Assembly: GCA_900049755.1 (NCBI GenBank)
Contig: LT160593.1
Span: forward strand, 68,684-132,683
From: Corynebacterium provencense
GTDB taxonomy: Bacteria > Actinomycetota > Actinomycetes > Mycobacteriales > Mycobacteriaceae
Length of the DNA: 64,000 nt
Direction of reading: 5' to 3'
The notes below the pieces were generated by a model. It made no database searches. It was not told the DNA's origin and was given only the letters and a program-made list of their open reading frames with translations. A program made the translations under genes and the position numbers. How positions within the stretch are numbered: position 1 is the first letter of the stretch; the number at the start of each line of letters is the position of its first letter. Below are positions 15,801 through 63,998 of this stretch, piece by piece.

Positions 15801-17998
15801 ACGCCGGGGACGCCTCCCTGATGTTCCTGCTCAAGCGGAAGCATCCCGCCGCCGACACCTTCCTCACCACGGTCGCGGAACTGTACGTCCGTGGTGCGGA
15901 CATCGACTTCACCGCGCTGGCGGGGCCGGGTGGTTGGGCTGACCTGCCGGGGATGCACTGGAATCTGCAGCGTCACTGGACCGACGCCCGCCCGGGCGGG
16001 GGTGCGGTCCGCGGCATGCCCGGGGCGAGGGTCGCGCTGCCGGACGGTCGTACCGCGTTCAGTGCGGCGCTGTCCGATGTGACGAGCGTGTCCGCGGTGG
16101 CGGAGGCGGCGGTGCACGCCGTCGACGGTGACGCGGTCGTCTCCGCTGTGGAGAGCTACGGTGCCCTGGCGGGTGCCCCGGGGGACGACGTGACCACCGT
16201 TGTGCAGCGCAGTCTCGGCGGGCTGACGGTGCATGTGCACCACATCGCCGCCGACGGTTCCGCCCGGCTGGTCGGCGAAGCGTTCGCCACCGCCTCCGGG
16301 TCGGCCGCGACACCGCAGGGCGGGGGAGCTGCTGCTCCGGCGGTTTCTGCAGGTGCTGCAGGCGGGGTGGCCCCGGTCTCTGACAGGTCGGCCACCGGGA
16401 AGGGGGCGGTCAACGCCCTACCCGCTGTCGACACGTCATCGGAGAGGTGGGACCCGGAGTCCGGTGAGTCGGTGGCTGACCGGCTGCGTGCCATTGTCTC
16501 CGAGTCGATGGGTTATGACGCCGACGACCTTCCCGGGGAGCTGCCGCTGATCGACCTGGGGCTGGACTCTCTGATGGGTATGCGTATCAAGAACCGTGTC
16601 GAGTACGATTTCGGGCTTCCTCCGCTGAATGTCCAGGAGCTCAGGGACGGTTCCGTGGATTCGGTCATCGCGATGGTCGAGTCTCTGGTGGCCGACGGCG
16701 GGAACACCGGGGAAAGTACCGGTGAGGACGCCGGTGAGGACGCCGGTGAGGATGCCCGTGAGGACGCAGCCGTCACCGCCGCCTCCGACACTTCAGCCGG
16801 CACGACGGACGCCTCCGGCACGACGGACGCCTCCGCGGCACAGGCACAGGCCCGTCCTCTATACACATCTAGAGCCTCCGGCACGACGGACGCCTCCGCG
16901 GCACAGGCACAGGCCCCGACCGGGGTCGGTGTCGCCCCCCGCGATGCCGCCGAGCGCATGGTGTTCGGAACCTGGGCCTCCGTCACCGGTGCCGCTCCGG
17001 CCGGTGTCACCAGCCCGCTGCCGCCCGTCGACTCCGCCACAGCGGAGACGATCGCCGCCAGGATCAACGAACGGTCCGGATCCTCGATCACCGCGCAGCA
17101 GGTGATGGAGGCCGGCACCGTCGAACCCCTGTCCGACATCGCCCGGGAGTTCCTCGAGACAGAGGTGGAGGGCAATATCCGTGTCCTGCGGGAGCGTCCC
17201 TCCGGCTCGCGGCGTCCTGCCGTGTTCATGTTCCACCCGGCGGGCGGTTCCTCGGTGGTCTACGAACCGCTGACGCGGCGCCTCCCCGACGACGTCCCGG
17301 TGTACGGGGTGGAAAGGCTCGAAGGCAGTCTCGACGAGCGTGCCCGAGCATACGTCGAGGACATCACCGCGCTCGCCGACGGCCTGCCGGTGGTTCTCGG
17401 CGGCTGGAGTTTCGGCGGTGCCCTGGCCTACGAGGTCGCCCACCGTCTGGAGAACTCCGAGGTCACCGTCGGTCATCTGGAGCTTCTCGACCTGGTGCAG
17501 CCCCTCCACCCGGCCCCTGACACGAAGGAGGAGATGCACGCCCGCTGGGACAGGTACTCCGCCTTTGCGTCGAAGACCTACGGGATCGACCTGCCGGTGC
17601 CGCACGACCTGCTCGACGAGCAGGGTGAGGAGGCGCTCATCGGCCTGATGACCACCTTCCTGCGCACCTCGGACTCTTCCGGGCACGGCCTTGCCGCCGG
17701 TGTCCTGGAACACCAGCGCGCCAGTTTCGTCGACACCCGCATCCTCAACTCCCTCGACTTCCACCGCTGGGCCGACGTCACTGCCCCGGTGACCCTGTAC
17801 AAGTCCGAGGGCATGCACGAGGGCGCGATCGAGCTGGAACCCAGCTTCGCCGAGATAGCACCGGACGGCGGATGGGGCGGTATCGTCGACGACCTTGAGA
17901 TCGTCCACCTGCCCGGAGACCATCTCGGTGTCCCCGACGAGCCGGCCATCGGCATCGTCGGAGCCCGCATCACCGAACACCTTGACACCCTCAGCTAG
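12899..17998 (+). CDS. pks13: Polyketide synthase Pks13 (mycolic acid condensing enzyme)
   Basis: Pks13 condenses two activated fatty chains to give the mycolate skeleton and passes it to trehalose. Domains of the 1699-residue protein: N-terminal carrier domain (about 15-85, attachment Ser in GLSSRD), ketosynthase (about 110-530, Cys283 in DTACSSS, His in EAHGTGT and NFGH), acyltransferase (about 670-1000, Ser762 in GQSMGE), C-terminal carrier (about 1190-1265, Ser1224 in GLDSLMG) and thioesterase (about 1430-1690, Ser1504 in GWSFGG). ATG 12899 fits the family N-terminus although its purine-rich site (AGGAAGG) is distant; an upstream GTG at 12842 exists. The linker near residues 1300-1340 is a repeat-rich Ala/Thr segment interrupted by an adapter-like patch at 16852-16889, so the protein sequence there is unreliable. 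Confidence 0.96.
16811..16917 (+). repeat. In-frame direct duplication inside the pks13 linker
   Basis: A block of about 42 bases beginning GCCTCCGGCACGACGG occurs at 16811 and again at 16874, 63 bases (21 codons) apart, so the frame is kept. The spacer contains the adapter-like patch. A shorter natural 18-bp tandem repeat (GGCACGACGGACGCCTCC) also overlaps the first copy. It encodes repeated [14 protein letters not shown] in the linker between the C-terminal carrier and the thioesterase. Repeats of this kind are hard to assemble, and the second copy may not exist in the organism. Confidence 0.8.
16852..16889. other. Tn5 mosaic-end junction remnant 1 (probable library adapter artefact) in pks13
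   Basis: This 38-base stretch aligns without gaps to two head-to-head 19-bp Tn5 mosaic ends (CTGTCTCTTATACACATCT plus its reverse complement), the Nextera mate-pair junction. 22 of 38 positions agree, including an unbroken 14-base run from TATACACATCT into AGA. It encodes PLYTSRA in an otherwise Ala/Thr linker. The count is my own by-eye comparison. Confidence 0.75.
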
Positions 17999-25421: not shown

Positions 25422-25459
25422 CGGTCTCTTATACCCTCCGAGTGTGGTATAGGGGCCGC
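25422..25459. other. Tn5 mosaic-end junction remnant 2 (probable library adapter artefact)
   Basis: Ungapped comparison with the 38-base head-to-head mosaic-end junction gives about 24 of 38 identities, including GTCTCTTATAC exactly and GTATA in the second half. The patch supplies the last codons and the TAA stop of the LPG-type gene (PLYHTRRV) and removes the start of the DUF3054 gene. Confidence 0.75.
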
Positions 25460-30027: not shown

Positions 30028-31170
30028 GTGAGTGCAGTGCAGGCGAGGGAAGCGGGAACTCCCGGGGGTGTTCAGACCGGTGCCGGTGGACGTGCCGGGG
30101 CGGCGGACAGGCGTCGTGGGGGGACGGGCCGGACGGTGGTCTCGGTGATCGGGCCGGACCGTGCGCAGGCTGAGACGGTGGCGGAGGAGCTGCGACGACG
30201 GGTGCCGCACCGACAGTTCGTGGTCGGTGCGGGCCCGGACATCGCTGACGGGGTGGTTGCGGTGACCGGTGGGGACGGAGGCACCGGTGCGGAGCGGGAC
30301 GCCGCGGTGGTGCGGGCGGTCAGGGACGCCACCGGTGGATGTGTCCTGTACACGGGCAGTTCCCGGCCGTGCTGCAACGGTCCGGGGGTGACGGTGGTAC
30401 GGTGGGGTCGGTCCCGGCCCGGGCAGGTGGACGGACCCGACGGACCCGGCGGACCCGCCAGACCCGGCCGGGACGGTGTCTCGGATCCTGTGGCGCTCGA
30501 TGAACTGGCGGAGACCGTCAGTTCCCTGTGGGTCGATGTCCCCCGCTGGCTCCGTGACGCGCGCCGGGCTGACGTGGACCGGGAGGAGCGGGTGAAGGTG
30601 GCGGTGAGACTGTCCGCGGAGAGGATCATCTCAGACCTGCTCGACCCCTCGTCCGGGGGTCCCGATCCGGCCGACCCGGTCGGCGCGGACGCGCTCGGAG
30701 AGCTCTTCCTGGCACGGTTGCGCTGCACCGTCCTGGAACAGGGGGTGGAGTGGCCCCGGGTGCGCGGGGACGAGAGTGCGTACTCCGGCGCAGGCGGTGA
30801 CGGTGTCGGCGAGGGACCCGGTGACGTCGGTGACGGTGGTTCCCGTGACCCGTACGGCGGAGAGGAACCTGGCGGGGACCACAACCGGATGCTTCTGGTG
30901 CTGGTGGCGTCCGCGTATTACCATCTAGATGGGTGTAAGAGACAGGGCTCGGTGGTGCCGCCGGTCGCCGGGGTGGTGGTGGCCCTGGTGCTGGCGGTGC
31001 TGAGGTGGCGGACGGTCACCGCGGAGCGCCGGGCGCGGCGACGGGCACGGACGCGTACACGTCTGCGGAGACGGTGGGGTGTGGTGGTGGCTGAGGTTGT
31101 CAGCAGGTTGAGGACGCCCCGGGCAGCCGAAGCACTGGTCCTGGAACTGAGCGGGGGTGGACTGCGGTGA
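30028..31170 (+). CDS. Conserved hypothetical membrane-linked protein (Rv0209-like position), sequence locally corrupted
   Basis: The 380-residue product has an N-terminal domain with an alpha/beta look ([23 protein letters not shown], about 36-60, given here in part), a Gly/Asp/Pro-rich middle, and a C-terminal hydrophobic segment (about 310-332) followed by an Arg-rich stretch. It occupies the place of M. tuberculosis Rv0209 between trmB and pckA and may be its counterpart. The hydrophobic region is split by an adapter-like patch (30908-30945, encoding [12 protein letters not shown]), so an additional or longer membrane helix may have been lost. GTG 30028 is the start. It overlaps the next gene by 4 bases (GTGA). 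Function unknown. Confidence 0.65.
30908..30945. other. Tn5 mosaic-end junction remnant 3 (probable library adapter artefact)
   Basis: This is the clearest copy: about 28 of 38 positions match the head-to-head mosaic-end junction without gaps, including CATCTAGATG across the join and TAAGAGACAG at the end. It interrupts a hydrophobic stretch of the encoded protein. Confidence 0.85.
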
Positions 31171-63071: not shown

Positions 63072-63998
63072 TCACCCCACGCGGTAGAGCGTCCACCTGT
63101 CGTCCGACCAGACCAGTTCATGGGGGGACGCCGGGTCGGTGAGTACCGCGGGGACGTCGACACCGGCGTCACGGGCAGCGTCCACCTCGACGAGGACGAG
63201 GTCGACACCCGCCTCCGCCAGGCCGTCCGCCCCGTCTGCGGTTCCGGGCGCGGCCCCGGGGGTGAACCCGTCCCCGGAAGCACCCCCGGACGCCAGTTCG
63301 GAGAGCAGTTGCACCGTCGTCGGATCACCGTCGACGACTCGTCCGTCGACGATGAGGTAGCCGGGGTCCACAGGTGAGCCGGGCAGCATCTTCAGCAGCG
63401 GGTCCAGCACCGGACGTCCGTCGATGAGCCGGTAGTTCCCCGGAGGCCACAGCAGGGTGTGCGGGTCGCTGAGGTCGGCATTCTCCGCGGCGTCCTCCAC
63501 CGCGTCCACGGCATCGGCATACCCGCCGTCCAACGCCACCGGACGCAACTGTGCCAGATCGGCGGGAAGCAACGGGACCTGCAGGAACGCCAGTGCTCCC
63601 GCCAGCAGGACCGGGACAGGCGAAGTAACCCGCGGCACCAGCACATCGACCCGCGACACCAGCATCACCAGTGCCGGCAGCGCGAGCACCACGAATTTCT
63701 GGATGTCGCGCAGCAGCCCCGCCCCGGGCACGGTCTCCAGCACCTCACCGAATAGTGTCAGCCCCGGCCCAGTCGCCAGCAGAGCCGGCACCACCACGGC
63801 CACCCCACCCAGCGCCGACAACCGTCGCAGGCCACCGGTCCACCCACTCCGCCGCCACAGCACCACCGCCACCGTCACAGCGGCCACGGCGAGCAGTACG
63901 CCGGCGGGCGGCACACATCCCGATGTGTACAAGACACAGCCCTGTGGCCGCAGGTGGGCGCAGTGGGGCGCGGCGAGGCCGGTGACGACACGGATGCC
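63072..63998 (-). CDS. Large membrane protein, C-terminal part (partial at right edge; possibly Rv0226c-like)
   Basis: The frame is open from 63072 to the window edge, so only the last 308 residues are seen. They contain about four hydrophobic helices and then an extracytoplasmic domain of about 150 residues (DPHTLLWPPGNYRLIDGRP in part; WTLYRVG at the end) with no cysteines. The layout resembles the C-terminal half of the large conserved envelope membrane proteins encoded beside Rv0225 in M. tuberculosis (Rv0226c). An adapter-like patch at 63902-63939 lies within the coding region (encoding VLYTSG), but the frame stays open through it, so the gene is probably intact apart from local residues. 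The identification is tentative. Confidence 0.6.
   Translation of the reverse strand, partial: GIRVVTGLAAPHCAHLRPQGCVLYTSGCVPPAGVLLAVAAVTVAVVLWRRSGWTGGLRRLSALGGVAVVVPALLATGPGLTLFGEVLETVPGAGLLRDIQKFVVLALPALVMLVSRVDVLVPRVTSPVPVLLAGALAFLQVPLLPADLAQLRPVALDGGYADAVDAVEDAAENADLSDPHTLLWPPGNYRLIDGRPVLDPLLKMLPGSPVDPGYLIVDGRVVDGDPTTVQLLSELASGGASGDGFTPGAAPGTADGADGLAEAGVDLVLVEVDAARDAGVDVPAVLTDPASPHELVWSDDRWTLYRVG
63902..63939. other. Tn5 mosaic-end junction remnant 4 (probable library adapter artefact)
   Basis: About 25 of 38 positions match the head-to-head mosaic-end junction without gaps, including ACACATC and GATGTGTA on either side of the join. It is the fourth such patch in the window and sits inside the right-edge membrane protein gene. 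Confidence 0.7.

Follow-up and report, generated by a model that had tools for sequence, protein, structure and literature searches.

A degraded mate-pair adapter junction, very probably an assembly artifact, within an open reading frame of Corynebacterium provencense

The host reading frame and the patch at 30908

The window (the whole 64,000-nucleotide stretch analyzed; C2:68684-132683) belongs to an assembly of 3,084,178 bases in 22 contigs and has a GC content of 67.6%. The feature under study is a short patch within an open reading frame (Table 1) that lies between what we take to be a trmB-like gene on one side and a PEPCK-like gene on the other. The label "Rv0209-like" for this ORF comes from an earlier annotation of the same DNA (the sequence-only reading), which also held that the patch splits a hydrophobic segment of the encoded protein. 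Protein alignments agree: at the position of the patch, the hydrophobic stretch is unbroken and 45 residues long in three relatives (G405, G417, and G431), while in the window ORF it is 41 residues long, shows a hydrophilic dip, and has ten patch-encoded residues in its middle. The ends of the 45- and 41-residue stretches were placed by hand on the alignments. At the nucleotide level, positions 30851-31060 were too divergent from two relatives to use, and the protein alignments were used instead. The patch codons TAT, CAT, CTA, TGT, and AGA occur at 0 to 2.4 per 1,000 codons in four nearby ORFs (patch excluded). The reading frame remains open through the patch, either by luck or as a weak effect of the patch length.

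Without gaps, the patch matches 28 of the 38 bases of two head-to-head Tn5 mosaic ends, the 38-mer that forms the Nextera mate-pair junction. Both the central join (CATCTAGATG) and the end (TAAGAGACAG) are intact, and the match described in the sequence-only reading is confirmed. The two 19-base arms meet head to head with no spacer, the right arm matching at 17/19 positions and the left at only 11/19. The fit of the left arm rises in a gapped alignment with single-base gaps, although this resemblance to a mosaic end is suggestive only. A strict search of the window with the 38-mer at up to 3 mismatches retrieved nothing; thus, the copy at 30908 is degraded.

As a chance control, 60 order-1 Markov sequences of 64 kb each gave best scores of 19 to 23 of 38. 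The top scores in the window were 28 (at 30908), 25 (63902), 24 (25422), and 22 (16852). The sequence-only reading had judged the pattern very unlikely by chance in DNA of about 70% GC; the measured GC content is somewhat lower, but the improbability stands against the control maximum of 23. Its description of the patch as the best copy holds inside the window and fails elsewhere, as nine places in the other stretches read reach 34/38.

Three further sites in the window were recorded (Table 1). The ORF around the remnant at 16852 is presumably polyketide-synthase-like. Between aligned flanks at this site, the spacing is 109 and 102 bases in two relatives, compared with 229 and 228 in the window. 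We note that, over positions 16811-16914, the linker in this ORF looks artificially lengthened. At 25422-25459, the window exceeds two relatives by 40 and 53 bases between the aligned flanks; this candidate is a weak one that could instead be an inverted repeat of natural origin.

Table 1. Features of the window discussed in the text
Feature	Coordinates	Strand	Remark
Host ORF, 380 aa, open	30028..31170	+	Hydrophobic segment interrupted at patch
Degraded Nextera mate-pair junction (probable), palindromic	30908..30945	.	Score of 28/38
Ten codons read from the patch	30916..30945	+	Rare-codon content
41-base direct repeat, left copy, abutting the 16852 remnant	16811..16851	+	Printed sequence; 25 bases computed
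Second remnant, 22-base piece with exact junction core TATACACATCTAGA	16852..16873	.	Inside 1718-aa ORF
41-base direct repeat, right copy	16874..16914	+	Read from printed sequence
Weaker candidate, 24/38, left arm 14/19	25422..25459	.	Outside the 78-site list
Third remnant, 25/38, right arm 16/19	63902..63939	.	Junction scoring

Copies across the assembly

When a 24-base part of the junction was searched against the genome at up to 3 mismatches, 54 matches were retrieved, compared with 0 for the reversed control. These matches carried two (n = 19) or three (n = 35) mismatches, and none carried fewer. The 19-base arm retrieved 105 genome matches; among the best 100 of the 105, 54 had exactly two mismatches and none had fewer. 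The 56 stretches around the listed matches, together with the window (193,682 bases in total), were then scored for the junction. The score histogram comprises a smooth background followed by a separate hump at 27 to 34 of 38, with nine sites at 34 and fifteen at 33. In the 193,682 bases read, 59 sites score at least 27, and no site scores 35 to 38. A broader list of 78 sites (total of at least 27, or one arm of at least 15) contains no arm better than 17/19; that is, every arm has at least two mismatches. Because the stretches were picked by arms with up to 3 mismatches, the worse tail of this distribution is undercounted, while the missing better tail is unaffected by the choice. Across the 59 strong sites, the substitution rate in the copies is 21% at A/T positions versus 9 to 12% at G/C positions, an approximately twofold bias that is not fully explained.

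The junction is confined to one assembly in the sampled set. Of 201 genomes drawn evenly from the family, the source genome alone matches the 24-base part (0/200 for the others), and two relatives (480 kb and 80 kb read) contain no junction score of 24 or above. The sequence-only reading had proposed a comparison with a close relative's genome; in the sampled relatives, the junction is absent. Taken together, the match, the dozens of copies, and their absence from the sampled relatives bear out the earlier identification of the patch as Nextera mate-pair circularization adapter. We conclude, at a probability of about 95%, that the patch at 30908 is leftover adapter, an assembly artifact and not biology. 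The artifact is of a known kind.

With no arm in the 78 sites below two mismatches, trimmed data are favored over untrimmed data as the source of the copies. It is fairly likely that the better copies were removed from the reads beforehand, and the sharp lower limit suggests a trimmer that tolerated a single mismatch per arm. The default error rate of Cutadapt, 10%, corresponds to exactly one mismatch for 19 bases. A screen of the finished contigs, as opposed to read trimming, is a possible but rather doubtful source of the same limit, and it contests the trimming step only. Such a screen would fit the sharpness of the two-mismatch floor, as well as N runs that border an arm, at their start in two stretches (L195 and L217) and at their end in a third (L205). 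However, these N runs measure 201, 24, and 86 bases, unlike an arm (19) or a junction (38), and look like scaffold gaps.

Flanking sequences and the origin of the copies

Direct repeats of at least 20 bases adjoin the junction at 11 of 74 usable sites, compared with 0 of 4,000 control points (4 of the 78 sites were too close to the end of a stretch to be usable). With shorter cutoffs, the counts were 17/74 versus 5/4,000 (at least 12 bases) and 19/74 versus 19/4,000 (at least 10 bases). Two of the 11 sites are both arms of one place in L184, leaving 10 places. The adjoining repeats range from 20 to 59 bases; the one in L177 has 59 bases to either side, and the one in L201 has 40. The junction in L188 is flanked on each side by a copy of a block of at least 107 bases, an N run of 86 bases also lying between the two, and both block copies align to one stretch of relative G417. 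When the 193 bases preceding this junction were searched against the genome, 107 of them were recovered at their own place, along with an 81% match elsewhere; the remaining 86 bases are N. When flanks were compared with the fetched parts of G417 and G431, 8 of the 56 stretches aligned over more than 400 bases in total, and repeats within the assembly's own flanks were used instead.

Gaps and contig ends also occur beside the copies. Nine N runs of at least 24 bases are present in the 57 sequences, and 5 of the 78 sites touch one or lie within 25 bases of one (0 to 23 bases away). In L195 (1005-1224) and L217 (1020-1062), the left arm is followed immediately by the N run, and in L205 a run ends at an arm. 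The gaps in L195 and L217 look as if contig ends had carried adapter. Two copies lie near the ends of short contigs (C10 and C18). The GC content of the flanks (50 bases on each side) is 74.3%, compared with 67.6% in controls. The remaining sites are plain in these respects: 63 of 74 usable sites have no adjoining repeat of at least 20 bases, and an N run within 25 bases is lacking at 73 of 78, with 30908 belonging to both groups.

The sequence-only reading had attributed the patch to a contig polished over untrimmed reads, an account that the data do not support in this form. The two-mismatch floor of the arms points to trimming, and the adjoining repeats, edge N gaps, and contig-end copies, found at a minority of sites, point to joining or gap closing and not to base-by-base polishing. 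We therefore regard it as likely that contig joining or gap closing built the junctions into the assembly. At 30908 and at most other sites, where neither a repeat nor an N run is present, we only infer joining. Under this scenario, short-read contigs would have broken at GC-rich, poorly covered places, and scaffolding and gap closing would have bridged the contig ends with reads still bearing the junction. Copies with up to one mismatch per 19-base arm would already have been trimmed away, leaving only error-rich ones. At 30908, the bridge may have replaced part of the hydrophobic segment, with the frame kept by chance.

Consensus polishing, in which junction-bearing reads overwrote correct sequence base by base, contests the joining step only, and gap closing or contig joining is the likelier route. 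It would sit well with copies that are mosaics of matches and mismatches, with substituted bases at A/T positions that lean toward G/C as native DNA would, and with a site at 30908 that retains an open ORF and adjoins neither a repeat nor an N run. Against this, duplicated flanks adjoin the junction at a minority of sites, the N gaps of L195 and L217 start right where an arm ends, and the stretch at 30908 is four residues shorter than in the three relatives. On balance, we consider polishing improbable.

Palindromic elements of a natural Tn5-like or MITE-like family could likewise explain why palindromic copies with mosaic-end arms are numerous and dispersed, but this reading is highly improbable. 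None of the 200 other sampled family genomes has a copy, and no arm in the 78 sites exceeds 17/19. A 9-base target-site duplication was identical at 0 of 76 sites tested, one of which showed two mismatches. A search of the genome for the Tn5-type domain PF14706, the only transposase domain searched, gave 0 matches, while the control detected E. coli. The identical synthetic junction also occurs exactly in unrelated assemblies. Tn5-like transposon origin was rejected on the first, third, and fourth of these grounds: nothing in the sampled relatives, no 9-base duplication, and no PF14706. A real mosaic-end palindrome family, recently amplified in this strain and unrelated to library preparation, is less probable still. 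Chance resemblance was rejected as negligibly probable: 10 of the 38 bases do differ from the junction, but random maxima (19 to 23, versus 28) and the reversed control (0 genome matches, versus 54) both fall far below what was observed.

The significance of the leftover adapter is one of data quality only. In the parts read, a genome that stands for its species contains no fewer than 59 strong remnants, some with duplicated flanks, and at least two remnants, or pieces of them, lie inside ORFs of the window. Screens for the exact adapter would be expected to miss such remnants, since no arm seen has fewer than two mismatches. Any gene model or repeat analysis based on this assembly should be checked at the remnant sites.

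Comparison with known systems

The 19-base mosaic-end arms are common to the copies described here and to Tn5/IS50 mosaic-end insertions. Unlike in such insertions, the arms here meet with nothing between them, are not bounded by a 9-base duplication, and occur in a genome with no match to PF14706.

Closer counterparts are found in public assemblies. When named public assemblies were scanned for an exact 26-base junction core, at least 120 stretches were obtained, 80 of which were scored, several from the same assemblies. Among these 80 stretches, drawn from the matches listed, there are 94 junction copies, 72 of which are exact over 38 bases. We note that the scored stretches (L042-L121) hold mostly exact mate-pair junctions in many named assemblies of unrelated bacteria, again among the matches listed. 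The public junctions were found by an exact 26-base core; here, by contrast, the best copies differ from the 38-mer at four positions, and each arm differs at two or more.

The adapter and its handling are documented in the literature. The exact 38-mer is printed as a biotin-labeled ring adapter that circularizes fragments of about 4 kb (PMC7357533). The portion of the Skewer paper that deals with the junction adapter describes the mate-pair protocol, the adapter, and the need to trim it, with the sequence not given there (PMC4074385). For Hugonella massiliensis, the source of one of the 80 listed stretches with the junction core (L118), the corresponding paper describes a Nextera mate-pair library, six assemblies from trimmed and untrimmed data with GapCloser run on each, and a final SPAdes assembly on trimmed reads (PMC5552949).

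The copies in the present assembly resemble the retained Nextera junctions in Hugonella massiliensis LN908985.1, Collinsella ihumii GD8, and Enterococcus sp. 10A9_DIV0425, with which they share the same 38-base head-to-head ends. They also resemble the public junctions in their flanks: among the matches listed, repeats of at least 20 bases adjoin 17 of 75 usable junctions in public assemblies (versus 4 of 2,070 controls), a share similar to the 11 of 74 in the source assembly.
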